A DNA stretch of 64,000 bases from Janibacter sp. A1S7 (lineage in GTDB: Bacteria; Actinomycetota; Actinomycetes; Actinomycetales; Dermatophilaceae): the NCBI RefSeq assembly GCF_037198315.1, contig NZ_CP144913.1, forward strand, positions 1,922,001 to 1,986,000, written 5' to 3'. The notes under the pieces are model-generated. The model had not been told where the DNA came from. It saw only the letters and a list, made by a program, of their open reading frames with translations, and made no database searches. Shown here piece by piece: positions 568 to 19,687 of this stretch (position 1 is the first letter of the stretch; every line of letters starts with the position of its first letter). The translations under genes and the position numbers were made by a program.

Positions 568-574
568 GCCGTTT

Positions 575-2261: not shown

Positions 2262-2280
2262 CCGCTCTACTCACCTTCGC

Positions 2281-3691: not shown

Positions 3692-3835
3692 CCGGGGCCT
3701 CCCACAACTGTCGGACAGGCCGAGCAGGCAGCCCCTACTCGGTAACCCACGAACATGTGTGAGAGAGGCCCCGGCCCGCAACCACTCAGACGCCCCAAGC
3801 GGTCACTCCATACCGTCTAGCCGAGGTGTGGCGTT
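3692..3835 (-). ncRNA. Candidate IS110 bridge RNA / non-coding end
   Basis: The 144 nt upstream of the transposase contain no gene. In IS110-group elements this end encodes the structured bridge RNA that pairs with target and donor DNA. Position and size fit, but I have not folded it or matched its loops to flanking DNA. Confidence 0.3.
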
Positions 3836-3841
3836 AGGTCG

Positions 3842-4306
3842 TCAGGTAGCTGGCGGGAGGGTGACCGCCGTCCACCCTCCGATCAGTGCACTCGCGGCGG
3901 CAGCGGCCTCGAGGTCGTTGGGCGTCTGGAGTGGACGCGGCCCGCCGATGAAGATCAGGGCTCGTTCGATCTCGCCTGCGGTGTCGATCCATGCCTGATC
4001 GAGTCCATCCGGGGCCACGGCTGCCGTCGAGTCGTCGAAGATGACTCCGCGAGTTGCGGTCACCACCCAGCGGCCGTTGCGCGCCACCGATGCCTGCACA
4101 GCAGGCTTCCGGCGTCCTGGACGCCAATCGGAGACGGGGCCCGTCACATGCTCCAAGCCCACCCGTCGCGCAAACAACTCGAGCATCTCCGTTGCTCTGC
4201 CTGCAGGCGGGAACATCTGAACGGCCAACAGCGGCAGGATCTGCTTGCTGGTCCCATGAGCCATGAGCATCGGACACAGCACCGCGTCGTCAACACCTGT
4301 CGTCAC
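3842..4306 (-). CDS. Hypothetical protein, last gene of a recombinase operon
   Basis: 154 residues from GTG 4306, which overlaps the recombinase stop by 4 nt (GTGA), so it is probably translationally coupled. I do not recognise the family. The protein is soluble and mixed alpha/beta, with segments such as HVTGPVSDWRPGRRKPAVQA and RWVVTATRGVIFDDSTAAVA and an alanine-rich C-terminus. It ends a few bases from the IS110 non-coding end, so its 3' flank may have been changed by that insertion. Context suggests a role linked to the recombinase, but nothing in the sequence shows which. Confidence 0.55.
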   Translation of the reverse strand: MTTGVDDAVLCPMLMAHGTSKQILPLLAVQMFPPAGRATEMLELFARRVGLEHVTGPVSDWRPGRRKPAVQASVARNGRWVVTATRGVIFDDSTAAVAPDGLDQAWIDTAGEIERALIFIGGPRPLQTPNDLEAAAAASALIGGWTAVTLPPAT

Positions 4307-4887
4307 TGCGACATCTCCCCCTTCGCCTTGGCGCGCTGAATGGTCCGGTAGACGGTCGCGCGAGAGACCGCGTAGTCGTCGGCCAGTTGGGCCACGGTGG
4401 CGGTGCCGTCCTCGTACTCCTGGAGAAGCTTTCTCGTGCGTCGCTCGTTGAGTTTGGGCTGCTTTCCGAGCAGCCGGCCCTGAGCCTTGGCGATCGCCAG
4501 CCCTTCCATCGTGCGCTGCCGGTTCAGGTCAGCCTCGAACTCGGCAACCATCGCCAGCGCGTTGAACAGGAACTTGCCGACAGGGTCTTCCGGGTCATGC
4601 AGCGACGGACCCAGCTGGAGCGCCGCACCCTTCTCGTAGACCTGTCCGACGAGGTCACGAGCGTCGGGCACAGAACGAGCGAGGCGATCGAGCTTGGTCA
4701 CCACGAGCACATCGCCCGGGCGAAGGGCAGCGATCGCCTGCTCGAGCCCGGGCCGGTCCTTCGTGGAGCGGCCGGTGCCCTTGTCGGTGTAGATCCGTTC
4801 CTGGTCGACTCCGAGGTCGGCCAGCCCCTTCAGCTGAGCGGCAAGGTCCTGCCGCCCAGTCGAGACTCGCGCGTAGCCGATTAGCAC
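4303..4887 (-). CDS. Serine recombinase (resolvase/invertase type)
   Basis: 194 residues from GTG 4887. The N-terminal resolvase domain starts VLIGYARVSTGRQDLAAQLK, with the nucleophile serine in YARVST, then YTDKGTGRSTKDRPGLEQAI and a VVTKLDRLARSVPDA block with the conserved arginines. The C-terminus EYEDGTATVAQLADDYAVSR plus ATVYRTIQRA is the usual DNA-binding helix-turn-helix. The ATG at 5040 lies in the previous gene, whereas GTG 4887 is 4 nt after that gene's stop. Small recombinases of this kind resolve cointegrates or invert DNA; no crossover site was identified. A second, different one lies at 34.8 kb. Confidence 0.85.
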   Translation of the reverse strand: MLIGYARVSTGRQDLAAQLKGLADLGVDQERIYTDKGTGRSTKDRPGLEQAIAALRPGDVLVVTKLDRLARSVPDARDLVGQVYEKGAALQLGPSLHDPEDPVGKFLFNALAMVAEFEADLNRQRTMEGLAIAKAQGRLLGKQPKLNERRTRKLLQEYEDGTATVAQLADDYAVSRATVYRTIQRAKAKGEMSQ

Positions 4888-4891
4888 GGGT

Positions 4892-5335
4892 TCAGTTCCC
4901 TGCGGCCAAGTCGGTCGCCGACTGCGGCCACGGATAGAGACTAGGGAGGCGGTCGAAGCCTTGCGGGGTGCCGTCGTTGTCGTACCGGATCTCCGAGTGC
5001 TCGTGCGACCCGTTGGCGTGGGCGATGGCAGCGAGCACAAGCGAGATGTTGTTGCGGTCGAGTCCCGAGACGTCCTCGTTGAGGTCGACCCGCTCCCCCC
5101 CGATCAGGGACGCGGCGATGCGCGCCACGCGCTGCTCTCCTCCGGACCAAGCACCAATCCCGTCGAGAAGTTCGTCGACGTCGACGACAACCCGGTCGCC
5201 ATAGTCGTACAGCCACGGCGCGCCGGCGTAGATCCCGCGGCCCTGTCTGATCAGTAGCTCCACGCCGGCCTCGAGGGGACAGATGCCCTTCGCCCAGCCT
5301 CGGACGCCTTCGACAACTTCACTCTGAGTCTTCAT
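4892..5335 (-). CDS. Hypothetical protein, first gene of a recombinase operon
   Basis: 147 residues from ATG 5335 (MKTQSEVVEGVRGWAKGICP). AGGAG sits 11 nt upstream, which is why I prefer it to the ATG at 5458. I do not recognise the family. Visible segments include a GICPLEAGVELLIRQGRGIY block, an acidic VVVDVDELLDGIGAWSGGEQ block, and SGLDRNNISLVLAAIAHANG. The stop lies 4 nt before the recombinase start, so the two are very likely co-transcribed. Similar proteins of unknown role occur on actinobacterial mobile elements, as far as I recall. Confidence 0.6.
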   Translation of the reverse strand: MKTQSEVVEGVRGWAKGICPLEAGVELLIRQGRGIYAGAPWLYDYGDRVVVDVDELLDGIGAWSGGEQRVARIAASLIGGERVDLNEDVSGLDRNNISLVLAAIAHANGSHEHSEIRYDNDGTPQGFDRLPSLYPWPQSATDLAAGN

Positions 5336-5608
5336 CGTTGATCGAGCTCCTATTCTCAGTCGCGTCCCTGGCAGTCGCTTCCTTCGCCTTTTGACCAAAG
5401 CCATCGTCGCTTCTAGGTCTGACAGTCTCGCCAGCCGGTCGCGTTTGTCCGGGGTCATTGCGACCCTATAGCCGGGCGGGTCTAATGCGACAGCATTTCA
5501 GCGAGTTCCGTCGGTGAGCGGTCGGCCCGTCCGATGTCGCGGTTGACGATCGGCTACTGAGCGCCACCTGGCACTCCACCTCTTCGTCGTTCTCGGTACC
5601 GTCATCGC

Positions 5609-6175
5609 GTGACAGCGCAGACGTACGCGTGGGAGCGCGACGACGAGGGCCGCGGGCACAGCTTCGCCCGGGTCGAGGAGCATCCGGCCGGCTGGACGGT
5701 CCACGGCACCGAAGTGCTCGTCGGCGAGGAAACCCTCGCGTGCACCTTCCGCGTACGGCTCGACCCGGACTGGCACACGCGCGAGGTCGAGGTGGCGGCC
5801 GTTGATGCGAGTGGCGAGCGTCGCCTCGTGCTGGGCGCCTCCGACGGGCGTTGGGAGGTCGACGGCGTCTATGATCCGGGGCTCGATGGCTGCGTCGACG
5901 TCGACGTGGCGGCCACGCCACTCACCAACGCGTTCCCGATCCGGCGGCTGGCCTCCCTTCCACCCGGTGAATCGCGGACCTCACCTGTGGCCTGGGTCGA
6001 GGTCCCGTCGCTGCGGGTGCGCCGGGTTGACCAGACCTATCAGCGGCTCTCGCCCGCCGCCAACGGTGGGGCGCAGTGGGAGTACGGCGACCCCGACCAC
6101 GGCACGTTCCGGCTCACTGTCGATGAGGGTGGGGTCGTGATCGACTACGAGGGTTTCGCGCGCCGGATCGGATGA
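5609..6175 (+). CDS. Putative glycolipid-binding (DUF1089-type) protein
   Basis: 188 residues. The match is to the putative glycolipid-binding family: a short N-terminal strand region, GRWEVDGVYDPGLDGCVDVD in the middle (the W.x.x.G...GLDGC.DVD signature), then TPLTNAFPIRRLASLPPGES and a C-terminal domain ending DEGGVVIDYEGFARRIG. No signal peptide or membrane segment is seen, so it is probably cytoplasmic. The name comes from homology to a few characterised members; the true ligand is unknown. A strong hairpin at 6277-6312 may end its transcript. Confidence 0.75.
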   Translation: MTAQTYAWERDDEGRGHSFARVEEHPAGWTVHGTEVLVGEETLACTFRVRLDPDWHTREVEVAAVDASGERRLVLGASDGRWEVDGVYDPGLDGCVDVDVAATPLTNAFPIRRLASLPPGESRTSPVAWVEVPSLRVRRVDQTYQRLSPAANGGAQWEYGDPDHGTFRLTVDEGGVVIDYEGFARRIG

Positions 6176-6276
6176 TCGACGACATCGGGCGCGATCACCC
6201 CGTCCGTAAGCGGATCCCGGACTGGAACGCGCGGATGAGACCGACCATTCGCGTCTGTGGGGCGCCCACAGTACGA

Positions 6277-6312
6277 CGAGGGCGAGGCTCCCCCTGCAGA
6301 GCCCCGCCCTCG
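6277..6312. terminator. Long hairpin, possible bidirectional terminator
   Basis: CGAGGGCGAGGCTC and GAGCCCCGCCCTCG pair over 14 positions with one mismatch around an 8-nt loop. There is no strong U-tract. It lies about 100 nt after the glycolipid-binding-type gene and just beyond the end of a minus-strand transposase remnant, so it could serve either. Confidence 0.5.
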
Positions 6313-6354
6313 CGAGCCGTGCGCCTGCGCACAGTCCGTCAGTGGATGCCCTGC

Positions 6355-7003
6355 TCAGCCATCTGCCGACGTAGGAGCCGAACGCGGACCGGTCGATGAG
6401 AACAAATACCCAGCGGCAACCCCCGAGGCCTCCGCGAAAAGTCTATAGTTGTCGCGTGCAGGGCCAGTGGTGTGCGTGTCCGGGATATCGGCCACCGAGG
6501 GCTGTGCGAGGTTTCCCTGCTCGATGGCGGGATCGGCGGCAGGCGTGGTTCCGGCGTCGGCGATGGCGTCCTTGGCCTTGGCCGGGACCAGGTTACCGGT
6601 CGATCGAGGCCGCGCTCATCGACAGCAGTTCGGTCCGTACCGCGCGACTGTAGCGATCCTTCGCCTCGACGAGTTCACCGTGGCGCTCCAGGGCGTCCAC
6701 GTGGGCGCGCATCGAGACCACCGGGCACTTGCCGCTCTGCCCACCGGATGCGGCCCACACCTTCTGCAGCACCTTCCACGCGTCGTAGGAGAACTTCGGC
6801 GCCCGCGGTTTACGGACCGGCGTGGCCACCGCCCGACCGGGCCCCGGCGGCGTCTTGGCCGCCGCGACCAGCCGCCGGCGGGCGTTGTCCCGCGACCAGC
6901 CGGTCACCGAGACCACCTCATCGAGCATCACGCCCTTGTCGGTCTTGCTCGCCTTCGCGTAGGCCGTGGCGTACTTGTTGGTCACATCGGCACGCGAGGC
7001 CAT
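6355..7003 (-). pseudogene. Integrase-core transposase remnant, frameshifted
   Basis: From ATG 7003 the frame reads MASRADVTNKYATAYAKASK, then VVSVTGWSRDNARRRLVAAA and APKFSYDAWKVLQKVWAASG. This is the N-terminal HTH region of a large integrase-core transposase. It stops at TAA 6593 directly after SAASIDR. One base over, the reading continues as LVPAKAKDAIADAGTTPAAD and on to a TGA at 6355-6357, so CGGTAACCTG looks like CGGTACCTG with one extra A. The catalytic core never follows, so the copy is both frameshifted and truncated. The sequence from 6176 to 6592 otherwise holds only this tail and a hairpin. Confidence 0.7.
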
Positions 7004-7042
7004 CGACAACTCACTTCCCATGCCCCAGCAGCATCCACCGAT

Positions 7043-7099
7043 TTCGCGGGCATTTCCTTCGTGAGGCGCCGAGGGTGGTTCGCGGGCACTTTTCGTGAG
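7043..7099. repeat. Subterminal direct repeats of a dead IS
   Basis: TTCGCGGGCATTTCCTTCG... at 7043-7065 and TTCGCGGGCACTTTTCGTGAG at 7079-7099 are near-identical direct repeats upstream of the truncated transposase. They look like the binding sites at that element's 5' end. Confidence 0.45.
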
Positions 7100-7159
7100 T
7101 CTCGTCGGCCGTTGACGATGTGATCACTGCGCGATATCTTAATTCTATTCACGTAAAGT

Positions 7160-7208
7160 GATGAAGCAGGGTGAAGCGGCTTTGCAGTATTCAATGAGTC
7201 GCTTCATC
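7160..7208 (+). promoter_or_regulatory. Inverted repeat in the leader of the first secreted peptide
   Basis: GATGAAGC at 7160-7167 is the exact inverse of GCTTCATC at 7201-7208, directly before the GGAGGGG ribosome binding site of the gene at 7220. It could be an operator or a leader stem that affects translation. Confidence 0.35.
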
Positions 7209-7219
7209 GGAGGGGGATC

Positions 7220-7558
7220 ATGAGTCGCATTGGTGGCATTGTTCGGCGGGTCGGATGTGCGGCTCTTCTGGGCACAACGATGGTTCTCGGCCTGCAGTCG
7301 GCTGCTTCTGCTGGTATCGATCCCGGCACGGGGGGCTCTGGCTACACCATTTACCCGACGTCCTCGCCGTATATCTCCTATGCGGTCGTGACCAGTTGCT
7401 ACCCAACAACGGCTCTCATCGCTCAAGCAAAAGCTGTTCTCAGTGGCGTCGTGGCGTTAGGGCCCAAGTCAGTCAATAGTGTGGATGGTGAAAGCTTCGT
7501 CAGTCTGAGACGGGTAGGGACCTACAGCGGCCACTGGTACTGCATGAGAATCGCTTAA
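7220..7558 (+). CDS. Small secreted peptide, possible bacteriocin-like precursor
   Basis: 112 residues with a clear Sec signal: basic MSRIGGIVRR, a hydrophobic core, and a cleavage-like site near ASAGIDPG. The mature part is about 80 residues, rich in Ser, Tyr and Gly (TIYPTSSPYISYAVV), with a cysteine at SCYP and a second in the GHWYCMRIA tail, which could form one disulfide. GGAGGGG lies 5 nt before the ATG. I do not recognise the family. Its place at the head of a cluster ending in an ABC export system, followed by a secreted partner protein, suggests an exported effector; this is inference. Confidence 0.6.
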   Translation: MSRIGGIVRRVGCAALLGTTMVLGLQSAASAGIDPGTGGSGYTIYPTSSPYISYAVVTSCYPTTALIAQAKAVLSGVVALGPKSVNSVDGESFVSLRRVGTYSGHWYCMRIA

Positions 7559-7598
7559 ACAGGTCAACGGTGGATGAGGAACTGCAGGGAGGCTCATC

Positions 7599-8228
7599 AT
7601 GGTTCACACAATTCGCAGTGCCGCTCTGGCGGCCCTCGCGGTAGGTGCCGTTGCCGCCACTGCGGCCATGAGCCCTGGGACAGCGAGCACTTCTGCTCCG
7701 GCAGCTGACGAGTCCACGGAGACGGCCTACTCACTGGTATACAAGAAGGCGCTCAGGCGTGCTTCGGTCTCTCCAGGGGAGGACATGGCCCTGTCGTGGG
7801 CACTTGCGGACGGACGCATTGATCCCAAGGAGAATGCGCAGGCGCACCGTCGGTACGCAGATTGCATGACGGAGAGCGGTTACACCCCACGCTTCCGGGA
7901 GAGCACGGACGGCCTTTACGTGGAATTGCCCTATCTGACTGTCGGCGATCCAGCGCGCTTGGATGCCGCCGTGCGGGACTGCTCTGTCGGCACTGCCATG
8001 GTCTCGGCCCTCTACCGGATACAGTTGTTCAACCCCCGCGGTCTGAGCGACTCGCGGCTCGTTGCCGTGCAGTGCCTGGCCAAGGAGGGGCTCGTCTCGA
8101 GCACCTACTCGGCCGAGGAGTTCGAAAGGAACCTGATCGCCGACAAGTTCCCCTTCGACGCAACCGCACCGGAGGCGAACGACTGTCTGTACGGAGCCGG
8201 ATACGCGTACTTCGCCCTCGACAAGTGA
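7599..8228 (+). CDS. Secreted protein with repeated C-x(4)-G motifs
   Basis: 209 residues: a signal peptide (MVHTIRSAALAALAVGAVAA) and a largely helical mature domain. It carries four cysteines in related contexts, YADCMTESGY, VRDCSVG, VQCLAKEGLV and NDCLYGAGYA. The motif resembles the CLRDAGW and CLSEHGYE elements of the lipoprotein at 9703, so the two may be paralogues, one soluble and one lipid-anchored. It follows the small secreted peptide by 40 nt and is probably co-transcribed. It may be an immunity or docking protein for the peptide (inference). No family name can be given with confidence. Confidence 0.6.
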   Translation: MVHTIRSAALAALAVGAVAATAAMSPGTASTSAPAADESTETAYSLVYKKALRRASVSPGEDMALSWALADGRIDPKENAQAHRRYADCMTESGYTPRFRESTDGLYVELPYLTVGDPARLDAAVRDCSVGTAMVSALYRIQLFNPRGLSDSRLVAVQCLAKEGLVSSTYSAEEFERNLIADKFPFDATAPEANDCLYGAGYAYFALDK

Positions 8229-8284
8229 CGCGAGCTCCGTCGTAGGGTAGACCCATGGCAACTCTCGTGGAAGTCCACCCTGAC

Positions 8285-8301
8285 GATCGGTGACCGGTCA
8301 G
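8285..8301 (+). repeat. Copy of the dispersed GATCGSTSACYGG motif
   Basis: GATCGGTGACCGGTCAG starts 57 nt after the preceding stop codon. With the following CGATC it makes an imperfect 22-bp palindrome (GATCG.TGACC / GGTCA.CGATC). Confidence 0.5.
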
Positions 8302-8376
8302 CGATCCCCTTGGCACTCTCGCAGGTCACCTCCTGGCCCAGGCCAACTCCGCTCTTCCCAAGCGGAATACGCTGCC

Positions 8377-8416
8377 GTAAACCAATGGTTGACAAATTTG
8401 TCAACCATTGGTTTAC
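8377..8416 (+). promoter_or_regulatory. 40-bp perfect palindrome containing a promoter
   Basis: Left arm GTAAACCAATGGTTGACAAA (8377-8396) is the exact inverse of 8397-8416. The palindrome contains TTGACA at 8389-8394; after a 17-nt spacer comes TTTACT at 8412-8417, a good -35/-10 pair. The start codon of the next gene is at 8424, about 7 nt after the -10, so the transcript is predicted to be leaderless. A dimeric or tetrameric repressor bound here would block the promoter fully. Confidence 0.75.
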
Positions 8417-8423
8417 TGTCGAT

Positions 8424-8990
8424 ATGGAAGCGATCAGGGAAGCGCAGCAGGCTGTGGACCGCGCCAAGGATCAGTTGAGATCAGCCGTGCAGGAGGCCCG
8501 GAGCCAGGGGCAGACCTGGGCGGCGATCGGTCAGGCCCTGAACATGAGCCGGCAAGCCGCTTTCAAGCGATTCGGCGAAGTGACCAACCCGGTCGATGGC
8601 CGGAAAATAGAGGGAGTGCGTATGTCAATCGACCAGGTTCGACGAACAACCGAGCAGATCTTCGACCTCATCAGTGCGGGTGAGTACGACAAGCTCGAGC
8701 AGTTGATCCACCCTGAGGTCAGGAACGAGTTGCCAGCATCGCTGATCTCGGAGACCTGGGCCCGCGTCCTGACAGAGGTCGGCGTAAAGGAGTCATACGT
8801 AGACACTCACGTGGCTCTGCCCGCAGGAGAGCGAATCGAAGAAGACGACCAAATCCTAGGGACCGTTGTAGGAGTCACCACGCTGAACTGCGAAGCCGGC
8901 GAGATGATGGGCCGCGTGGCCGTCGATGACCACCAGCGGGTGGTAGGACTCTTGATCGTCACCCCCGACTACAGCCCGTTGCCATTCTGA
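8424..8990 (+). CDS. HTH regulator fused to a DUF3887-like domain
   Basis: 188 residues from ATG 8424. An N-terminal coiled region ([20 protein letters not shown]) leads into a helix-turn-helix, [20 protein letters not shown], of the sigma-region-4/AsnC-like kind seen in small actinobacterial regulators. From about residue 70 the chain resembles DUF3887: [20 protein letters not shown], then a beta-rich domain. It probably binds the 40-bp palindrome on which its promoter sits. It lies inside the secreted-peptide/export cluster but is flanked by two short-repeat copies, so it may be an independent insertion there. Confidence 0.65.
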
Positions 8991-9029
8991 GCTCACGCAG
9001 CTGAACAAGCAGCAGTCCCGTAAGCGGGA

Positions 9030-9060
9030 AACCTGTTCCGGTCACGGATCGCTCACTGGG
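9030..9060. repeat. Dispersed motif pair downstream of the HTH gene
   Basis: 9030-9050 is the exact inverse of the 21 nt GATCCGTGACCGGAACAGGTT at 18793-18813, and overlaps GATCGCTCACTGGG at 9047-9060. The block starts 40 nt after the stop codon of the HTH gene. Confidence 0.5.
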
Positions 9061-9076
9061 TCGCGGAGCGACCCGG
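9056..9076. terminator. GC-rich hairpin after the HTH gene
   Basis: GGGTCGC-gga-GCGACCC (9058-9074) is a perfect 7-bp stem, extended by two pairs outside. There is no U-tract, so it is at best a weak intrinsic terminator. Confidence 0.45.
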
Positions 9077-9368
9077 TTGCCGATCGCTCAGCACCGCACG
9101 TGCCGACACCGGATGGGGCGTTGGAGTGGGGACCTGCGTCGGTGCGGCGGGGTGCCCGCGATGAGGAATTAGGCGATTGCGCGGTTGCTGAAGGAAGGGG
9201 TTCTCTTACGAAGTCTTTACGGTTTCGACCTCCTCTTACGCGAGGAGAGGGAGTAGCGTACGTCGAACCTCAAGCAAAAATACAAGCTTGGGTATCGCTC
9301 CATACCAGTGATTGGTTGACTACCGCGTGAGGCGAATGGAGTGCTATTTCTTCGGGGAAGGAAAGATC

Positions 9369-9692
9369 ATGGGGAAAACTCGATCCGTCGCGGCACGAGT
9401 TGCCGTTGCGGCGTCTGCAGCCGCAATGTTGGTTGTCAGCACTGCGGGTAGCGCAGCTGCCTTGGGGGAGGATGACGGTACCGTGTGGTGCTCGCACAAG
9501 GTGCAGAAAACCAAGGCTTACGCGACTGGAACGGTGCATCACAATCCCGCACCTTCGGGGTCAAAGACGGTATACCACGGCGGTTGGAGCGTTAGTTACG
9601 CTTCCGCGAATGCGCTGGGTGGTGGGCACTGGGTCGTTTGGACTTCGGGTCGGTTGAACCCGACCTCGACCAGGGCGTATTGCGTGGGCTGA
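9369..9692 (+). CDS. Lactococcin 972-like secreted bacteriocin candidate
   Basis: 107 residues from ATG 9369, with GGAAGGAAAG just upstream. The signal peptide MGKTRSVAARVAVAASAAAM continues to a cleavage-like SAAALG. The mature part starts GEDDGTVWCSHKVQKTKAYA, then has HHNPAPSGSKTVYHGGW and ends RLNPTSTRAYCVG. The Trp, His/Ser and repeated Gly-Trp pattern over about 70 residues, and the export genes downstream, recall the lactococcin 972 family (cell-wall-active Sec-exported bacteriocins). Similarity is by eye and partial. Two cysteines at the ends of the mature part could form one disulfide, not typical of lactococcin 972. Confidence 0.5.
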   Translation: MGKTRSVAARVAVAASAAAMLVVSTAGSAAALGEDDGTVWCSHKVQKTKAYATGTVHHNPAPSGSKTVYHGGWSVSYASANALGGGHWVVWTSGRLNPTSTRAYCVG

Positions 9693-9702
9693 GGGAAGTC
9701 TT

Positions 9703-10233
9703 GTGAGGCTTCTGCACGCAAAGTCTTCGGGCTGCATGGCTCTACTCTTCGTGTTCTTGATGGCTGGTTGCGCTAGTCAAGAGAAGGAGGCCAATGACGC
9801 TTATCCCACTTGGCAGGGCACTCCCTTGGAGTACATGGAGGCCGTCGCCGATTGCCTGCGCGATGCAGGATGGGAAGCGAAGGTAACTCCGCGTCCTCCT
9901 AGCGTGGAATCGGACTACCCTGCCAGCCAGAGGGAGGCCTTTATCCGGGACGACCGGGCTTGCACGAAGAAGCTCGGTCGAGGACCCGTCCCTCCGCCAA
10001 TCACCCGGGAGCGTGCCGAGAGTCGGTATGAGTACCACGTGAAGATGCGTGGTTGCCTGTCCGAGCATGGCTATGAGACGAGCGAGCCCCCCAGCAAGGA
10101 GCAGTTTGTCAACACGGCTCTGAGCGGTCGGCCGCCATGGAATCCCTATATGGACGTGCCGGCCGACTTGAGGCAAGAGGAGTGGGATTCGCTGATAGCG
10201 GACTGCCCGCAGGATCTGCCGCTCGACGAGTGA
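9703..10233 (+). CDS. Lipoprotein with C-x(4)-G motifs, possible immunity protein
   Basis: 176 residues from GTG 9703, 10 nt after the bacteriocin-like gene. A type II signal peptide ends in the lipobox MAGC (SGCMALLFVFLMAGCASQEK). The mature domain has VADCLRDAGWEAKVTPRPPS, ACTKKLG and MRGCLSEHGYETSEPPSKEQ, the same C-x(4)-G theme as the secreted protein at 7599. The anchored location, tight linkage to a candidate bacteriocin and repeat of the same pairing upstream suggest an immunity or receptor role; this is inference. It ends before a long hairpin at 10250-10295. Confidence 0.65.
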   Translation: MRLLHAKSSGCMALLFVFLMAGCASQEKEANDAYPTWQGTPLEYMEAVADCLRDAGWEAKVTPRPPSVESDYPASQREAFIRDDRACTKKLGRGPVPPPITRERAESRYEYHVKMRGCLSEHGYETSEPPSKEQFVNTALSGRPPWNPYMDVPADLRQEEWDSLIADCPQDLPLDE

Positions 10234-10249
10234 GTACGGGAATGGCTAC

Positions 10250-10295
10250 GGCCTGTTCCCGGTGTGGCTTACCAAGGCTGCGCCGGGAACGGGCC
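10250..10295 (+). terminator. Hairpin between the lipoprotein and the export operon
   Basis: GGCCTGTTCCCGG (10250-10262) pairs with CCGGGAACGGGCC (10283-10295) with one mismatch and a 20-nt loop, starting 16 nt after the lipoprotein stop. With no U-tract it may attenuate rather than end transcription into the export genes. Confidence 0.5.
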
Positions 10296-10454
10296 GGGTC
10301 AGCTGTTGGTGGCAGCAGGACATGTGCGGCAACGGTTATGCAACGGATCAGTGACTCATCATCTGCGCGGCGTGGACACGTGATGGCATGTCCGCAATGT
10401 GCGGCGTCAGCCATCGTGACTGGGTCGCTTGATGACATCTGAGACGAGGACGCA

Positions 10455-11675
10455 GTGGCCGTAGGAGAGGTTTGGGCACAGTCACGGGGAAGCTCAGCGA
10501 GTTCAGTTGATCGAGAGCCCGGCGATCAGCCACAGGAGCGGCGGCGCCGTGTCGGTCTCTGGGGAGTCATCGTGGCCATTGTCCTGGTCACGGGTGTGGC
10601 GCTCGGATGGTCAGGTCGCGAGTTGCTGCTGCCTCCTGATCCGTTGCCGCAGGGCCGGGACTTCTCCGTGGTCAAGGCTGACGAGGGTGAGGTTGAGCGA
10701 TCGCTCAACCTCAATGTCTCAGCTCAGTGGTCGGGGGGGCCCGAGGTCATCAACGCCGCTGATGGCGTGCTGACCGAGCGTGCGGTGGAGGACGGTTCCA
10801 CCGTGGGCGCGGGTGATGTCCTCTACACCATGGACCTCAAGCCGGTCATCGTGGCTGAAGGCACCGTTCCCGCGTTTCGAGATTTGATCTCGGGCCATGA
10901 GGGCGCCGATGTGCAGCAGTTGCAGGCACTCCTCGTTCACGCCGGCGTGCGGGACGCCGAGCCCACCGGAACCTTCGATGACGCCACACTGGCGCAATTG
11001 AAGGAGTGGCAGCAGCAGGAAGATCTCCCATGGACCGGGACGGTGCCGCTCGGCTCCATGGTGTTCGTTCCGGAGTTGCCGCGCGCTGTCGCTTGGGGCG
11101 AGACTCCACCGGCGCCGACGGATCAGTTCGGTGGACCATCGAGCGGGGAGGGCGGCAGCGAGTCGTCGGCGACCGTCGGCTCGCGGTTGGCGCCGGGCAC
11201 GGTGGTGGCGCGATTGTTGCCGAAGCGTCCCGAGTTCACCATGACGATCCCCGCGAATCAGCTCAGCATGGTCGAGCGGGGCACGCCCGTTGCCATCCAC
11301 GCTGAGGACGTGGCCTGGCGAGCCAGAGTGGGCCGGGTCGGTGAGCCGGATCAGGAGGGCTCGGCCGTCGCCCAGGTCCTCCCTGCCAAGGGTAAGAAGA
11401 GCATCTGTGGCAAGCAGTGCCACCTCGTTCCCATCAACGGTGGATCGCTTCCGACCGAGGTGATCGCCGTGCCGCCCACCACAGGCACGGTCGTTCCCAC
11501 GGCGGCGCTGGTGGTCGGCGATGACGGATCCGCTGCCGTCGTCACCGAGGATGGTGACCAGGTAGAGGTCCAAGTGAAGGCTTCCGCAGGTGGCCAAGCC
11601 GTCGTCACCGGCATCGATGCCGGTACCCGAGTCCGCGTCCCGGGACAGTCCGACCCGGCAGCCGTGACCCCATGA
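10455..11675 (+). CDS. HlyD-like membrane-fusion protein with peptidoglycan-binding domain
   Basis: 406 residues from GTG 10455. A basic cytoplasmic tail (QPQERRRRVG) precedes one membrane helix at about 34-52 (LWGVIVAIVLVTGVALGW). Outside it are a biotinyl/lipoyl-like hairpin region (ADGVLTERAVEDGSTVGAGD), a PG_binding_1-type domain at about 140-185 (GHEGADVQQLQALLVHAGVR and TGTFDDATLAQLKEWQQ), a Gly/Ser linker, and a C-terminal beta domain. A cysteine pair, SICGKQCHLV, sits near residue 330. This layout is seen in actinobacterial MacA-like adaptors that pair with MacB-type transporters. The stop overlaps the ABC ATPase start by 4 nt. Confidence 0.8.
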   Translation: MAVGEVWAQSRGSSASSVDREPGDQPQERRRRVGLWGVIVAIVLVTGVALGWSGRELLLPPDPLPQGRDFSVVKADEGEVERSLNLNVSAQWSGGPEVINAADGVLTERAVEDGSTVGAGDVLYTMDLKPVIVAEGTVPAFRDLISGHEGADVQQLQALLVHAGVRDAEPTGTFDDATLAQLKEWQQQEDLPWTGTVPLGSMVFVPELPRAVAWGETPPAPTDQFGGPSSGEGGSESSATVGSRLAPGTVVARLLPKRPEFTMTIPANQLSMVERGTPVAIHAEDVAWRARVGRVGEPDQEGSAVAQVLPAKGKKSICGKQCHLVPINGGSLPTEVIAVPPTTGTVVPTAALVVGDDGSAAVVTEDGDQVEVQVKASAGGQAVVTGIDAGTRVRVPGQSDPAAVTP

Positions 11676-12388
11676 ACCCGTCCACCACGCCAGTGCGGAG
11701 CTATCGCAACCCGACGACCAATGGTGCACGCCTGGCCGCACATGCAGTGAGCTTCGCTTACGGCGGGGGTTCGGCGCGTGTGGCCCACGACTGGTCTGCC
11801 GAGTTCCGTGCAGGTGAGGTGAGCGCTATCACCGGTCCTTCCGGATGCGGGAAGTCCACTCGGCTCTACCTGCTGGCGCTGATGCTCGGCCTGGACGGCG
11901 GCATCGTAGAACTTGATGGACACCGCGTAGACGACCTGCCGGACGCCGAACGGGCGCGCCTGCGTGCCACGCGGTTCGGGTTCGTCTTCCAAGACGCCGC
12001 GCTGGACTCCACCCGCAGTGTGATGGACAACGTCTTGGAGGCGGCGCTCTATCGCGGTCAGGACCCGGCTGACCTTCGACCCCGCGCCGAGACTCTGCTC
12101 GCACAGATGGGCGTCGACATCCCCGTCGACCGGCGCCCGGGACAGATCTCCGGGGGCCAGGCGCAGCGCATCGCGGTCTGTCGCGCACTCGTCGGGGCCC
12201 CGGACGTCGTCTTCGCCGACGAGCCCACCGGAAATTTGGATCCGGGCAGCGCAGCAGCAGTACTTGGCATGCTGCGTGAACACGCTGACAGCGGCGCCGC
12301 GGTGGTGATCGTCACCCACGACCCGGACATCGCCTCGTGGGCCGATCAGCATCTCCCGCTCACCTCGCACCAGAGCCTCAGCGCATGA
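11672..12388 (+). CDS. ABC transporter ATPase (MacB/LolD-like)
   Basis: 238 residues with a complete nucleotide-binding domain: Walker A GPSGCGKST (about residue 54), Q-loop VFQDAALD, signature ISGGQAQRI, Walker B VVFADEPTGNLDP and H-loop VTHDPD. The ADEPTGNLD block places it in the MacB/LolD/FtsE group that drives mechanotransmission-type transporters rather than channel exporters. It overlaps the adaptor gene by 4 nt and the permease by 4 nt, so the three form one translationally coupled unit. It probably powers export or removal of the peptides encoded upstream. Confidence 0.9.
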   Translation: MNPSTTPVRSYRNPTTNGARLAAHAVSFAYGGGSARVAHDWSAEFRAGEVSAITGPSGCGKSTRLYLLALMLGLDGGIVELDGHRVDDLPDAERARLRATRFGFVFQDAALDSTRSVMDNVLEAALYRGQDPADLRPRAETLLAQMGVDIPVDRRPGQISGGQAQRIAVCRALVGAPDVVFADEPTGNLDPGSAAAVLGMLREHADSGAAVVIVTHDPDIASWADQHLPLTSHQSLSA

Positions 12389-13506
12389 CCGCGCCACTGA
12401 TGGTTCGTGCCCGCGCGTTCGCCCGCGAGGTCCTCGCCTCGGCGTTTAGCCAACGCGTCACCTCAGTCGTCACCTTCCTCCTCGTGCTCGGTGCAACTGC
12501 CACCGTGCTCGTCACCGCTGGACGCAACGCTGGCGCCCAAGCCGCCGTCCTCGCGCAGGTCGATGCGGCCGGCACCCGCTCTCTCACCGTCTACGCGCAA
12601 GGGGTGCAGCCCTCGTTCACCTCCGCCATCGTTCCGCGCCTCGCCGCCCACGACGACGTGATTGCCGAGGTGGTTGGGTTCGGTCCCGTCACGGATGTCA
12701 CGGCAGCGGCCATCCCGGTCGGCACGCCCGTGGGGATGCGCACGGCATACGGAACCTTCAGCGGGCGGCCTTTGGCCCCCGGTGAACCGGTCGCCGGTCT
12801 CACCCAAACCTGGGCGACACCGGCAGCTCTCGATACTCTCGGCATGCCGCAGGGCCGCGGAAGCGTCCGCGTCACCGACCAAGGCCGCGAACTGCTGGTG
12901 ACCGACAGGGTCACCCTGCCTGAGCACCTTGAGCCTATCGAGCCGGCCGTCATCACCCCTGGAGATCCGGCTACCAATGAACCGCTGACCTCACTCGTGG
13001 TCATCGCCGACCGGCCCGAGGATCTGCCGTTGGTCACCGACCTCGTCACCGCTGCTCTAACCGATGTGCCGCCTGACGGGCTCAAGATCGAGTCCTCCCA
13101 AGCTATGGCCGACCTACGCGCCGTCATCGGAGGCAAACTCACCGCGCAGTCCCGTTCCATCATCCTTGGCGTCCTCGCCGCCGCGGCCGCCGCCAGCCTG
13201 GTCAACGTGTGGTCCCTCGCGCTGATGCGACGGCGCGACTTCGGCCGCCGCCGAGCTCTCGGAGCCACTCGAGCCATGATCGTCGCTCTCATGACCGGCC
13301 AAGTCCTCGTCCTCGCCGCAGCCGGAGCCACCGTCGGAGCTGCAGCAGGCGCCGGCTTCCTAGCCGCCTCGGGCGACCCCATTCCAACCCCTACCTACCT
13401 CCTCGCCCTTGTGGTCGCCTTCACTACGACCACGACCCTCATCGCCGCCATCCCCGCCACCTGGGCCGCCCGCCGAGACCCACTCAGCGAACTCAGAGTG
13501 CCGTAA
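12385..13506 (+). CDS. FtsX/MacB-like permease
   Basis: 373 residues from ATG 12385 (ATGA overlap). Topology is one N-terminal helix (VTSVVTFLLVLGATATVLVT), a large extracytoplasmic domain of about 220 residues, and three C-terminal helices (RSIILGVLAAAAAASLVNVW, GQVLVLAAAGATVGAAAGAG, YLLALVVAFTTTTTLIAAIP) ending RRDPLSELRVP. The last helices carry the FtsX-type core, with MRRRDFGRRRALGATRAMIV between them. Four helices with a large outer domain is the MacB pattern. It completes an adaptor-ATPase-permease export unit. Confidence 0.85.
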   Translation: MTAPLMVRARAFAREVLASAFSQRVTSVVTFLLVLGATATVLVTAGRNAGAQAAVLAQVDAAGTRSLTVYAQGVQPSFTSAIVPRLAAHDDVIAEVVGFGPVTDVTAAAIPVGTPVGMRTAYGTFSGRPLAPGEPVAGLTQTWATPAALDTLGMPQGRGSVRVTDQGRELLVTDRVTLPEHLEPIEPAVITPGDPATNEPLTSLVVIADRPEDLPLVTDLVTAALTDVPPDGLKIESSQAMADLRAVIGGKLTAQSRSIILGVLAAAAAASLVNVWSLALMRRRDFGRRRALGATRAMIVALMTGQVLVLAAAGATVGAAAGAGFLAASGDPIPTPTYLLALVVAFTTTTTLIAAIPATWAARRDPLSELRVP

Positions 13507-13649
13507 ACAGGCTCTTCGTACCTGACCCCCACCGCAGGTATGAAGACCCCGTAAACAGGCCAAGCCCAGAGTCGCTCAGGCCCTCGCTGCTGACCCGCAG
13601 TCCAAGAAAAATCGCACCCGGGGCGATTCGGGCTCAGGGGTCGTGGGAG

Positions 13650-13770
13650 TGATGCTCTTATGGGTTGTCAAGCGGCGGTGAGCCATTGTCGGTAGCGGTG
13701 GGCGAAGGTGTCGTCGCGGCGTCGGCCGAGTTCGAGTCACCGACGCTTGACAACCCATAGGAGAGCATCA
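13650..13770. mobile_element. MITE-like element or IS deletion derivative (121 bp)
   Basis: TGATGCTCTTATGGGTTGTC with the next 5 nt (13650-13674) is the inverse of 13744-13770 except for two extra bases, giving about 25-bp terminal inverted repeats. The 70-nt interior reads on the minus strand like the last residues of a transposase (DDTFAHRYRQWLTA), so it is probably an internally deleted IS. It sits in the 355-nt gap after the permease gene, which otherwise shows nothing I can name. Confidence 0.65.
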
Positions 13771-13861
13771 GTCCCCCATCTGGCGATCCCATCCGGTGCC
13801 CCCGGTGGGTGGTGTACCTGGTCCACTCCCGTGTCGTTGGGCCGCTGCCCTGGCCCCACTC

Positions 13862-14833
13862 TCAGGTTGAATTGGCGTAGCGGTTCGCCGTCGCGGCGGC
13901 GCGGTTGTGCAGTGCGGTGCGCAACGCCTGTGGGGCCAGGGCTTCGGCGTCCGTGCTGAACTGCCACAACGCCCATTCAGCGTGCCACAGGTCCTGGTAG
14001 GTCACCTCGAGACGCAACCAGCCATCGGTGTCGACTTCTTCGGCGCGCACGGCGACGGCGGTCTTCAACAGGTCGTCCCGCCTTGTCGGGTTCACCCGCA
14101 CCGAGACCGTGATGTGTGCGTCGGACAGGAACCGAGCGCAGCGCTCTTTCCAGACCTGTTCCAAGTCCACCTGGTCTGATCGCTGCGCTGGTTCGCGGAG
14201 GTCCTCGGCGGCCAGCATGCGCGAGAGCCGGTAGGTGCGGTCCTGCCCAGACTGCGTGGCCAGCAGGTAGCGCCGATCCCGCACGGCGACCAGACCGATC
14301 GGGTCGACGATGCTCCACCGTGCCGGGTGGCCTCGAGACGCGTAATGCAGACGCAGCTTGTGTCCGGCGAGCACGGCGTCACGGACCGCGCGCATCGTTG
14401 CGTCGGGCACCTCCTCGGTGACCAGTCGGCGGGAGAGGAGATCGGTCTGCGGTTGGAACAGGAACCGCCGGGTCGCGTCGCTCGCGGTCGCCTGATGAGT
14501 ATCGGGCAGCGCGTCCACCACTTTGCGCACGGCTGAAGCGAGAGCGGAGCCGAGGCCCAACACCTGCTCCCCGCGCCCCGAACCGGCGGTCAAAAGGGCA
14601 AGGGCCTCGTCGTGGTTGAGACCGGTCAGCTCCGTGCGGAAGCCGGGCAACAACGCGAACCCGCCGTGCCGTCCACGTTCGGCGTAAACCGGGATGCCGG
14701 CTGCGGAGAGCGCTTCGATGTCGCGAAGCACGGTGCGCGTCGAGATCTCCAGCTCGCGGGCCAACGTGTCTGCGGTCAACTGTCCGCGCTGCCGTAGCAA
14801 CAAGACCAAGGAGACCAACCGGTCAGCACGCAT
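13862..14833 (-). CDS. HTH/WYL-domain transcriptional regulator
   Basis: 323 residues. The N-terminal DeoR/HTH_11-type winged helix is clear: MRADRLVSLVLLLRQRGQLT, then LARELEISTRTVLRDIEALS. A linker with GGFALLPGFRTELTGLNHDE leads to the WYL domain (LRLHYASRGHPARWSIVDPI and VAVRDRRYLLATQSGQDRTY) and a C-terminal WCX region. WYL regulators bind small ligands or nucleic acids. The gene is divergent from the RidA-family gene, with 112 nt between starts, which makes that gene its most likely target. Confidence 0.85.
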   Translation of the reverse strand: MRADRLVSLVLLLRQRGQLTADTLARELEISTRTVLRDIEALSAAGIPVYAERGRHGGFALLPGFRTELTGLNHDEALALLTAGSGRGEQVLGLGSALASAVRKVVDALPDTHQATASDATRRFLFQPQTDLLSRRLVTEEVPDATMRAVRDAVLAGHKLRLHYASRGHPARWSIVDPIGLVAVRDRRYLLATQSGQDRTYRLSRMLAAEDLREPAQRSDQVDLEQVWKERCARFLSDAHITVSVRVNPTRRDDLLKTAVAVRAEEVDTDGWLRLEVTYQDLWHAEWALWQFSTDAEALAPQALRTALHNRAAATANRYANST

Positions 14834-14945
14834 GCGGCACTCTATCCAAATACCTGACCAAGGATGTCGTGATTCGTTGTCAGGCTCGCCTTCACGACGT
14901 CGAGGTGACGGCTACCGAGGCCGGCAGACGGCGAGATTCAACGGG

Positions 14946-15362
14946 ATGATTGGAGTGGATGTGGCAATTCAACGAACGGCAGTCAACCCGGTGACCTGGT
15001 CGCTGGAGATGTGCTTTAACCAGGGCGAGATCGTCACCGGGGACACCCGGACGCTGTACTGCTCCGGACAGACCGCCATGAGCAGCGACGGCCAACCAAT
15101 GTATGAGGGCGACATCGCCGCACAGTTGACGTTGAGCCTGCAGAACTTGGAAGCAGTGCTCAGCGAGGCAGGAATGTCCCTGGGCAACCTCGTTCGACTC
15201 AACGTCTACACCACCGACGTCGACCAGCTGTTCCCCCACTACGGGGTCCTGGCATCACGTTTGGGCGCTGCCAAGGTGGCACCAACCACCACCATGCTCG
15301 AAGTGGCACGGCTCGCGATCCCCGGCCAGATGGTCGAGCTCGAAGGTACCGCCGTCGAGTAG
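14946..15362 (+). CDS. RidA-family (YjgF/UK114) protein
   Basis: 138 residues from ATG 14946; GTG 14961 is an alternative. It has the single RidA fold: TLYCSGQTAMSSDGQPMYEG, a central SLQNLEAVLSEAGMSLGNLV helix, RLNVYTTDVDQLFPHYGVLA, and APTTTMLEVARLAIPGQMVE at the end. In archetypal RidA an arginine in an R-x-x-x-x-V-x(n)-PG-Q context binds the imine substrate; here the matching position in MLEVARLAIPGQ is shifted, so it may belong to a RidA subgroup without imine deaminase activity. A long hairpin at 15374-15419 follows. Confidence 0.8.
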   Translation: MIGVDVAIQRTAVNPVTWSLEMCFNQGEIVTGDTRTLYCSGQTAMSSDGQPMYEGDIAAQLTLSLQNLEAVLSEAGMSLGNLVRLNVYTTDVDQLFPHYGVLASRLGAAKVAPTTTMLEVARLAIPGQMVELEGTAVE

Positions 15363-15373
15363 AGCGACTCGCC

Positions 15374-15419
15374 GCCCCCGCTGCTCATGCCAACTGACAT
15401 GGCACGAGCAGCAGGGGGC
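15374..15419 (+). terminator. Stem-loop terminator of the ridA-like gene
   Basis: GCCCCCGCTGCTCATGCCA pairs with TGGCACGAGCAGCAGGGGGC with few mismatches and a 7-nt loop, starting 12 nt after the stop codon. Confidence 0.6.
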
Positions 15420-15480
15420 CACGCCTCGCTGACCACAAGCCGATCGTCACGCGGCGTGACCAGTGCGGGATCCTTCGCCG

Positions 15481-15639
15481 GGCATCTTCGCCAGCGTCCC
15501 CGACCTGATCGCCAGCATCGAGGAGTACATGGAAGCCAACAACGAAGACCCCCGCCCCTACGCGTGGACCGCCACAGCCGAATCCATCCTCGCCAAAGTC
15601 GACCGCGCCCGCGCGGCCCTACCCCAACGGGTCAGCTGA
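15481..15639 (+). pseudogene. IS630-family transposase, C-terminal remnant
   Basis: The frame reads GIFASVPDLIASIEEYMEAN, then TATAESILAKVDRARAALP and TGA at 15637-15639. It matches the last 53 residues of the intact IS630 transposase at 20.1-21.2 kb at most positions. ACTGAGACGG shortly after the stop matches the right end of that element. The upstream catalytic parts are absent. Confidence 0.8.
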
Positions 15640-15711
15640 AACTGAGACGGACCCACTAGAGAGCTTGTACAGAAGCCCTGACCGCGCAGTGGTCACCACT
15701 TTCACCTGATC

Positions 15712-15966
15712 GTGCCGCCGCAACTCCTTGACCTCACGCTCCAGCTCGATGATTCGCCTCGCCTCGTCGCTGGTGACGCCGGGCCGGTGACCCTCGTCAA
15801 TCTCGGCCTGACCGACCCAATTGCGCAGCGTCTCGAGGTTGATCCCGAGTTGCTCACCGACCCGACGCAACGCGCCCGACCTAGCTGCTGGGTCACGACG
15901 CAGATCGACCGCCATCCGGATCGCCCGCTCCCGAAGCTCCGTGGGGTACCTCCTTGGTGCTGCCAT
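15712..15966 (-). pseudogene. IS3-family orfA remnant
   Basis: From ATG 15966 the frame reads MAAPRRYPTELRERAIRMAV, GALRRVGEQLGINLETLRNW and ARRIIELEREVKELRR: the HTH and leucine-zipper of an IS3-family OrfA. The family match ends at about 15712, where OrfA would continue into its C-terminus and overlap OrfB. No OrfB (integrase core) is present, so only the 5' end of the element remains. It abuts the IS630 remnant, showing one insertion into another. Confidence 0.75.
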
Positions 15967-16032
15967 GGCTCTCACTCCTTCCGTGGAATGAGAGCCTCCA
16001 TCAGACCCGGCACGCGACATACCATTGACCAA

Positions 16033-16150
16033 GCCCGTGACCTCACTTCGTGACCATGACTGCGTTGACAACAGCCATGATCACCGAGGTCACGGGCCCC
16101 TCACGTCAACGACGCGGCCCCAACCGCTGCCCGGTAAACTTCGAAGAGCC
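16033..16150. repeat. IS-end debris: inverted repeat and an ISL3-like end
   Basis: GCCCGTGACCTC (16033-16044) is the exact inverse of GAGGTCACGGGC (16086-16097), with a second weaker inverted pair inside (GTGACCATGACTG / CAGCCATGATCAC). GGTAAACTTCGAAGAGCC (16133-16150), read in reverse, begins GGCTCTTCGAAG, like an ISL3-family terminal repeat. No transposase is attached to either. Confidence 0.4.
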
Positions 16151-16221
16151 GGATTGGCAGCCACACGCTGACTACTCCGCGTTTCGGGGGCTCAATTCCA
16201 TGGTTCTATCAAACCGGACCA

Positions 16222-16434
16222 TCAGTGCTTGACCAAACGCGAGTCGGGCGCTTCCCGGCCGCGTTCGGCACGTCTCGTTCGAAGCTCTCGTAACTTCGGC
16301 TCAACAAGATACAAGTGCCCAGCCATGATGGCTGCGGCCACGCCAGAGGCGACCCAAGCATTTCCACCGGCCGCACCGGCAGCCATCGCGCCTAGCGTCC
16401 ACGACAATAGGACAGCGATACTGTTGGAAACCAT
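16222..16434 (-). CDS. Small membrane protein, possible immunity partner
   Basis: 70 residues from ATG 16434 (MVSNSIAVLLSWTLGAMAAG). AGGAAGG overlaps an in-frame ATG at 16443 and is correctly spaced (9 nt) for ATG 16434. Two membrane helices are visible (IAVLLSWTLGAMAAGAAGG and WVASGVAAAIMAGHLYLVE), then a basic tail (RELRTRRAERGR). It follows the secreted protein gene by about 20 nt on the same strand. A small two-helix membrane protein directly behind a secreted protein is a common toxin/immunity layout, but no family match supports this. Confidence 0.55.
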   Translation of the reverse strand: MVSNSIAVLLSWTLGAMAAGAAGGNAWVASGVAAAIMAGHLYLVEPKLRELRTRRAERGREAPDSRLVKH

Positions 16435-16453
16435 GCCGATCATCCTTCCTAGC

Positions 16454-17350
16454 TCAACCTAGACAATTGCTCAGCGCCACGGTGTACCACCCGGTTGAGG
16501 TACCTACGATTCGTCGTTGGTAGCACGTGGAAGAAGATGCACTTCCTCCTGAACGCCAAAGTGAGACGATGGAGCTGTACACCGCCTTCAACGTAGGAGC
16601 ACCGATGGCTGTACAAGCCAAGGCGGCAACTTTGGTAACCGCCGTTGGCAACTTCCCAAGGCCAGAACAGGTGGCCACAGCTGCAGCACCGCCAGCCCCA
16701 ATGATAGCCGTCGCGATGGCCTTAGCCTCGGCACCGGTAATGTTCAGGTACACGCCCCACCCGTAAGTCAATCGTGGGTCGGCGGCGATTGGGAACTCGG
16801 CGCCGTCGGTGTCGACATGCTGGATCAGTTCCGATCCGGAAATGCTGTACCACGTGCGGAGGCGTTCGCCGTTCGCATCGATTGCCCACGGTGCATCGAG
16901 GCGGGCCGTCTGCGTCACTTTGCCCTCGTCGGGGGAGGCTCCACTAGTCGATTGACCCTGGCTCCGCTTCAGCAATACAGATCCGTCGTCCAGGACTTGA
17001 GCATTGCCCGTGGGAAGCCCGAATGAGGCAGTCGACTCTCCATCCTCAAGCACCGCAATGAGCGCATCCCTCGTCGCGAAAGTTTCACGGTTCGCAGGTG
17101 CTGTCACCGGGAGGGAGGCCTCCAACGATATCGTTTCGCCAGTGGCCTCAAAAAGCGGCGCATCATCTTGAGACTTCCCCATTTTCGGACTTACGCTCTC
17201 CGATTCCAGCGCCCTTTCAACCACTGCTCGGTGATCGGTCGGCTCAATCTCAACAGACGCAGCAGGCTGGGGTGCCACGGCTATTGTCATTGCTCCTGCC
17301 ACCAGTACGGCAGATAGTCGGCGAGTTGTGGCGGACGCGCTGTGGAACAC
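16454..17350 (-). CDS. Secreted protein of unknown function, possible effector
   Basis: 298 residues from GTG 17350, chosen because GAGAGA precedes it and it starts the signal peptide (FHSASATTRRLSAVLVAGAM to about PAASVEIE). The mature protein has an acidic N-terminal part, a beta-rich middle (LDDGSVLLKRSQGQ, RLRTWYSISGSELIQHVDTD, FPIAADPRLTYGW) and a hydrophobic C-terminal third (AEAKAIATAIIGAGGAAAV) ending in a GTSTGWYTVALSNCLG tail with paired cysteines. The hydrophobic stretch plus Cys tail could be a membrane-active domain. The next gene encodes a small membrane protein. The family is not recognised. Confidence 0.55.
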   Translation of the reverse strand: MFHSASATTRRLSAVLVAGAMTIAVAPQPAASVEIEPTDHRAVVERALESESVSPKMGKSQDDAPLFEATGETISLEASLPVTAPANRETFATRDALIAVLEDGESTASFGLPTGNAQVLDDGSVLLKRSQGQSTSGASPDEGKVTQTARLDAPWAIDANGERLRTWYSISGSELIQHVDTDGAEFPIAADPRLTYGWGVYLNITGAEAKAIATAIIGAGGAAAVATCSGLGKLPTAVTKVAALACTAIGAPTLKAVYSSIVSLWRSGGSASSSTCYQRRIVGTSTGWYTVALSNCLG

Positions 17351-19683: not shown

Positions 19684-19687
19684 CTCC

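Follow-up and report, generated by a model that had tools for sequence, protein, structure and literature searches.

What do seven genes that place two small secreted peptides and two cysteine-containing partner proteins beside an ATP-binding cassette (ABC) transporter do together? The genes lie between positions 7220 and 13506 of a 64,000-nucleotide stretch of Janibacter sp. A1S7 DNA (hereafter the window), which corresponds to C1:1922001-1986000 of a 3.36 Mb genome in one contig (NZ_CP144913.1). A first-pass annotation proposed that two peptide/partner pairs feed one MacAB-like export unit as a two-peptide antimicrobial or signalling system. We consider it reasonably probable that the island instead encodes one or more Sec-secreted bacteriocins, immunity lipoproteins, and a protection pump resembling MacAB and YknXYZ; the toxicity, immunity, disulfide, target, and division of labor are what we infer. 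The gene content, heuristically scored signal peptides, domains, recurrence, and linkage of the genes, the predicted fold of a relative, and a bacteriocin in the same slot of another genome support this reading at the sequence level.

Gene order and transporter type

The island consists of the following genes, in this order. C-x4-G denotes a cysteine and a glycine separated by four residues, and classes 1 and 2 are two lineages of such units, described below.

7220-7558, +: peptide 1, 112 aa; open reading frame (ORF) with a GGAGGGG ribosome-binding site and a borderline Sec-type signal peptide
7599-8228, +: partner 1, a secreted protein of 209 aa with three C-x4-G motifs and lacking a lipobox; member of the class-2 partner family
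9369-9692, +: peptide 2, 107 aa precursor with a signal peptide
9703-10233, +: partner 2, 176 aa lipoprotein with lipobox LMAGC (Cys 23); three C-x4-G motifs; class-1 partner family
10455-11675, +: MacA-like membrane-anchored adaptor (class 1), 406 aa, with a peptidoglycan-binding domain
11672-12388, +: ABC ATPase, FtsE/MacB/LolD/L_ocin_972_ABC-like, 238 aa, with an ABC_tran domain
12385-13506, +: FtsX/MacB-type permease, 373 aa from the ATG at 12385, with four predicted transmembrane segments

The gene order, signal peptides, C-x4-G motifs, 4-nt overlaps, and coordinates of all ORFs agreed with the first-pass annotation, the signal peptide at 7220 being borderline. On our own crude heuristic (scan cut-offs 1.3-1.7), the signal-peptide scores were 1.62 for 7220, 2.19 for 7599, 2.05 for 9369, and 2.53 for 9703. 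The longest ORF of peptide 2 starts with TTG at 9312, and the ATG at 9369 suits the signal peptide; the longest ORF of the permease starts with GTG at 12337. Gaps of 40 nt and 10 nt separate peptides 1 and 2 from their partners, and the adaptor/ATPase and ATPase/permease junctions are both ATGA overlaps of 4 nt.

The adaptor displayed a PG_binding_1 domain (34.5 bits; cut-off 23) and an N-terminal transmembrane segment; its match to RND_mfp (TIGR01730; 30.6 bits, E 1.6e-7) was below the curated cut-off, and those to HlyD_3 and Biotin_lipoyl_2 were weak. The ATPase matched ABC_tran with 91.1 bits (cut-off 25), and its NCBIfam scores for FtsE (153 bits), MacB (151), LolD (149), and TIGR03608 (144.3, against a cut-off of 254.85) were close together and all below cut-off. 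The permease matched FtsX (PF02687; 38.2 bits, cut-off 25.5) and showed four transmembrane segments in a hydropathy script; MacB_PCD (PF12704) was matched in this genome only at another locus. No match to DUF1430 was detected in the cluster proteins scanned. Judged by these domains, the adaptor and ATPase conform to the Gram-positive MacAB/YknXYZ-like type.

Recurrence and linkage of peptides, partners, and transporters

The distribution of the class-1 adaptor was examined with a profile (A2) built from ten adaptors, and the best four candidates per genome were scored. Across 396 genomes of the order, scores above 200 bits were reached at 42 places in 34 genomes, the next best candidate scoring 146.6; in the phylum, 10 places in 5 of 396 genomes reached at least 290 bits (next 162.6). 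We defined a class-1 set of 45 loci (including L023, L028, and L029), to which a second analysis added five more, and a comparison set of 27 lower-scoring adaptors (25 from the order survey plus L031 and L032). Under a strict rule requiring a signal peptide and precisely two cysteines, one toward either end of the sequence, 27 of 45 class-1 loci had a peptide, as did 2 of the 27 in the comparison set; a partner with C-x4-G motifs was present at 35 of 45 and 25 of 27, respectively. The partner thus goes with the transporter generally, whereas the peptide goes with class 1. Since homologous lipoproteins accompany the comparison transporters with or without a peptide, the partner is not merely the companion of the peptide, as had been supposed.

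In the second analysis, we counted small secreted ORFs directly upstream of partners recognized by profile. Such an ORF preceded 26 of 58 class-1 partners (24 of 50 loci). Among comparison partners this was so for 1 of 27 (Fisher P 1e-4), and among control long ORFs for 8 of 194 (P 7e-13); another control gave 4 of 200. Because the layout recurs in other genomes, it is not a product of chance. Peptide 1 itself did not pass the filter used in this count. Pairs were detected at 24 class-1 loci, one pair at 22 of them and two pairs at the other two. Several pairs are encoded 3' of the transporter or on the other strand (L023, L030, L165, L167, and L246-L248). The L023 locus is carried by the Clavibacter plasmid pCL-A6099 (5800-9901), with the peptide and lipoprotein pair (9036-9901) 3' of the ABC/FtsX unit; this plasmid is typed as mobilizable, and the pair and adaptor gene are absent from the PLSDB gene table, which is itself incomplete.

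At 21 class-1 loci picked for holding both genes, peptide similarity correlated with partner similarity after the adaptor was removed (partial r 0.284; 5 of 2000 permutations) and partner similarity followed adaptor similarity (0.296), whereas peptide and adaptor were uncorrelated once the partner was removed (-0.015). Mean identities at these loci were 26% for the peptide, 29% for the partner, and 37% for the adaptor. This co-variation fits a chain from peptide to partner to transporter.

Partners of class 1, class 2, and the comparison units are homologous (hhalign 96-99%). Relatives of partner 1, which define class 2, occurred in 64 of the 396 genomes surveyed in the order, frequently in tandem. 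They usually adjoin another adaptor/ABC unit: among 20 regions chosen from these 64 genomes for strong matches, 17 also contained an adaptor, and none was seen in L255, L257, and L268. In class 2 as well, a small secreted ORF preceded 12 of 51 partners (28 loci) compared with 8 of 160 controls (P 3e-4). Neither condition that the first-pass annotation set for its own refutation came true: in most of the 20 chosen regions the partner relatives do occur with an adaptor, and the class-1 transporter is not a housekeeping one, given its presence in 34 of 396 genomes and a search of 15 congeners that found nothing of it but short ATPase stretches. Divergent partner genes with C-x4-G motifs stood in tandem in L255 (G340; 4322-7634), L256, L257, and L258, the longest array being the four consecutive genes of L255; the arrays of L255 and L257 had no adaptor match in the fetched region (14 kb for L255). 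Such arrays could possibly represent immunity repertoires.

By sequence relationship, pair 2 belongs to the adjoining transporter, and partner 1 falls in a sister lineage whose members usually come with an adaptor, ATPase, and permease of their own. The proposal that both pairs feed one transporter is thus not supported. No class-2 transporter for partner 1 was found in this genome, and the lineage of partner 1 points to one that has been lost; since a unit of its own normally accompanies that lineage, pair 1 may have become an orphan. In genome G146 (L227/L276, 3.7-8.8 kb), the order is peptide, partner, peptide, partner, adaptor, ATPase, and ORF with four transmembrane segments, the same as in the window, and this is an independent case of two pairs before one transporter. 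Pair 1 may use the window transporter, with G146 as a precedent in favor and the class-2 lineage of partner 1 against.

A second genome, G332 (L269/L277), displayed the order lactococcin 972 peptide, lipoprotein partner, adaptor, ATPase, and ORF with four transmembrane segments. Its slot peptide matched PF09683 with 35.9 bits (cut-off 22), and TIGR01653 with 28.1 bits, below the cut-off of 32.1. An established bacteriocin family in this slot, together with the two pairs of G146, favors the antimicrobial part of the first-pass proposal; the synergistic two-peptide part was not borne out, as the peptides have Sec leaders and partners of their own.

The peptides and their possible roles

Peptide 2 has a signal peptide ending in AAA and a mature part of approximately 76 aa, with one cysteine near each end (GTVWC and AYCVG). 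In 23 aligned precursors of its family, the two cysteines are invariant, one late tryptophan is nearly so, and the mature part mostly begins with G-T-x2-C or similar. A profile search of a 5.8-billion-protein database (E 0.01) returned 30 proteins of this type, two of them known beforehand; none has a Pfam domain, and the five with names, including that of Micrococcus luteus, are all called hypothetical protein. Peptide 1 has a mature part of approximately 81 aa with a hydrophobic stretch and two cysteines, one of them five residues from the C terminus, and no relatives among 245 fetched loci; it suits the layout but is an outlier by sequence, outside the peptide-2 family. Neither peptide matched any Pfam or NCBIfam family, including PF09683 and TIGR01653, up to E 1, and none of the 32 members of the peptide-2 family set (A6) matched PF09683 up to the same value. 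By sequence, the window peptides are outside the known bacteriocin families.

AlphaFold2 modeling of a relative, P0021, with the peptide-2 family gave an all-beta sandwich of seven strands with a mean predicted local distance difference test score (pLDDT) of 84, and 94-98 across most of the mature part. As regards the lactococcin 972 fold (PDB 2lgn), this model of a relative of peptide 2 gave an all-beta sandwich with no significant match. From their positions in the first and last strands, the two cysteines of peptide 2 probably pair in one disulfide.

We propose that peptide 2 would leave the cell by Sec, form a compact beta-sandwich closed by a disulfide that joins the two terminal cysteines, and act extracellularly against related bacteria, the likeliest target being the envelope or the cell wall. 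As a lipoprotein on the membrane of the producer, partner 2 would provide peptide-specific immunity or capture and may pass the peptide to the MacAB/YknXYZ-like unit with its peptidoglycan-anchored adaptor, whose ATPase and FtsX-type permease would drive it off the membrane by ATP-driven movement. Pair 1 would be an additional cassette of peptide and immunity genes, drawn from the sister lineage; it would either share the transporter or be an orphan that lacks one of its own.

Several points weigh against this proposal. Bacteriocin activity is a prediction from sequence, and no upstream peptide was seen at 32 of 58 class-1 partners. Given its presence at most comparison transporters, the partner might serve such pumps in general as a subunit, and the co-variation amounts to one weak statistic from loci selected as described. 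Peptide 2 and its family showed no detectable relation to lactococcin 972 (hhalign probabilities 0.3% and 0.14%); as a positive control for such remote comparison, the Lcn972 profile A7 found PDB 2lgn (1.9e-10) and 9hkj (8e-7). The model of peptide 2 itself was poor (pLDDT 47.5), the well-modeled P0021 is only 22% identical to it, and the P0021 model had no significant match among solved structures (best Foldseek E 0.045).

The closest parallel is YknXYZ (YknWXYZ), which, according to the relevant section of a MacB review, protects Bacillus against the sporulation delaying peptide (SDP), which is Sec-dependent and has one disulfide, and has an adaptor that binds peptidoglycan (PMC5985334). The MacA-like adaptor with its peptidoglycan-binding domain, the ABC ATPase, the putatively MacB-like permease, and the Sec peptide with a putative single disulfide resemble that system as described there, whereas the recognizable PG_binding_1 domain, the cysteine-rich lipoprotein partner, and the different, larger peptide family set the island apart. 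AS-48EFGH of Enterococcus likewise combines an adaptor with a MacB-like transporter and confers immunity to AS-48; unlike the island peptides, AS-48 is a cyclic peptide with dedicated genes for export, and the section of the review cited mentions no cysteine-rich lipoprotein (PMC5985334).

Lactococcin 972 clusters are described, in the portions cited, as combining a Sec peptide and an ABC system whose function is presumed to be immunity (PMC11796350, PMC12345188), often a seven-transmembrane DUF1430 protein with an ABC protein (PMC12345188). The island shares the Sec-secreted peptide beside an ABC system, and in G332 a PF09683 member holds the same slot; it differs in that neither window peptide matches this family, the permease is of the FtsX type, and the ATPase falls below the TIGR03608 cut-off. 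No class-1 adaptor was seen at the three PF09683 loci of the phylum survey. In Brevibacterium, a lactococcin-972-like gene is described as sharing its operon with genes for an ABC ATPase and two transmembrane proteins (PMC5719810), which by analogy may be of the same kind as the island. The actinobacterial bacteriocin propionicin T1 has a 96 aa precursor with a signal peptide and a downstream ABC gene proposed for immunity; compared by description only, the account cited gives no lipoprotein partner or peptidoglycan-binding adaptor (PMC5756557). We found no description of the present gene layout in the open-license literature searched, an absence that is weak evidence.

LanI is a lipoprotein, and partner 2, with its lipobox and putative immunity role, resembles it in adjoining an ABC transporter. 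In the LanI and LanFEG system, as summarized in the source, the surface protein and the ABC transporter together protect the producer (PMC4828448); by contrast, the island has no lantibiotic family match, and its permease is of the FtsX/MacB type and works with an adaptor by gene arrangement.

Two alternatives seem to us about equally improbable. In the first, the MacAB-like unit would export or release the Sec-secreted peptides from the space between membrane and wall to the outside, with the lipoprotein as a chaperone. The tight linkage of peptide, partner, and transporter genes would agree with this role, as would the export of a protein toxin from the periplasm by Gram-negative MacB-type pumps that the review describes (PMC5985334). 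However, signal peptides on the peptides themselves make export by the MacAB-like unit, as envisaged in the first-pass annotation, less probable than protection; moreover, there is no outer membrane to cross, and the L255 partner array, with no adaptor match in the 14 kb fetched, better suits immunity. In the second, the lipoprotein and the MacAB unit would serve envelope detoxification or stress responses against foreign envelope-active compounds, and the peptide would be a decoy, sensor ligand, or accessory wall protein rather than a toxin. Lipoprotein and adaptor units without a visible peptide are indeed common, as the comparison set shows, and response-regulator-like genes, judged by eye, adjoin two comparison loci (L031 and L032) and one class-2 locus (L043). 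This alternative fits poorly, however, with peptides that are specific to units of classes 1 and 2 and more divergent than the adaptor, and with the genuine bacteriocin family in the G332 slot.

Signalling, in which the peptides would be sensed by way of the lipoprotein and the transporter would contribute to the sensor, is very improbable. Small secreted proteins paired with surface lipoproteins would suit it, and the MacB-like BceB works in both sensing and detoxification, as the review notes (PMC5985334), but no kinase or response regulator was found among the cluster proteins scanned, the helix-turn-helix (HTH) gene between the pairs belongs to a separate repeated cassette, and in our judgment the folded mature domains diverge more than is usual among pheromones.

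Class IIb two-peptide bacteriocins have double-glycine leaders, a C39 peptidase ABC exporter, and one shared immunity protein. A synergistic bacteriocin of this kind is the most improbable alternative: although two secreted peptides lie within one island, their leaders are of the Sec type, no C39 peptidase appeared among the Pfam matches of the ATPase, peptide 1 is unlike peptide 2, each precedes its own partner of a different lineage (with a putative immunity role), and single pairs prevail at the class-1 loci.

Mobile setting and possible significance of the island

The following features lie around and within the island.

2591-3751: IS110 transposase, upstream neighbor
4306-4887: resolvase, upstream neighbor
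5609-6172: gene for a Glycolipid_bind (PF06475) protein, amid the upstream mobile elements
6561-7117: stretch present three times in congener G005, upstream neighbor
8424-8990: HTH/DUF3887-like gene between the two pairs, with family matches below cut-off; not mentioned in the first-pass annotation
15622-16071: HTH_Tnp_1 transposase, downstream neighbor

Window positions 1-20000 were searched against 15 congeners, with the best 18 candidates per genome scored. The pairs and the adaptor had no match; within 7.1-13.8 kb, the matches were short ATPase stretches, 50 bp after partner 1 (G010), and 13634-13736 (G013). The island, flanked on both sides by mobile genes and with its pairs and adaptor unmatched in the congeners, is accessory.

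The HTH gene is part of a 756 bp cassette (8302-9057) with the ends CGATCC/GGATCG, a second copy of which, 98.8% identical, is located at approximately C1:401430-402198. The gene is preceded by a perfect palindrome of 40 bp (8377-8416), which the second copy extends by one base. The cassette had no match in the 15 congeners, and its protein had no homologue in the 245 other loci. The cassette looks like a separate repeated mobile unit unrelated to the pairs, perhaps a small one with a self-regulated gene. Just 3' of the permease, at 13645-13775, an inverted repeat of 27 bp (93%) brackets 55 nt; congener G013 has related stretches at four places, and the feature is possibly a small mobile element.

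Beyond this island, we tentatively suggest, with somewhat less than even confidence, a large and for the most part undescribed actinobacterial class of disulfide-linked, beta-sandwich Sec bacteriocins in which interchangeable peptide/lipoprotein cassettes would share a common peptidoglycan-anchored MacAB-like immunity pump. The slot would be swapped between new families and lactococcin 972, and with tandem cassettes, as in this island and G146, one pump could serve several peptides. The function of peptidoglycan-binding MacA adaptors where no outer membrane exists is named as an open question in the review (PMC5985334). If our reading of the island is true, small secreted proteins whose few named relatives bear the label hypothetical protein would be a source of unmodified, disulfide-stabilized bacteriocins, found at no fewer than 24 of the class-1 loci examined, and a lipoprotein together with a pump would be a general route of protection against envelope-acting peptides in high-GC Gram-positive bacteria, giving peptidoglycan-binding MacA adaptors a testable role in cells without an outer membrane.

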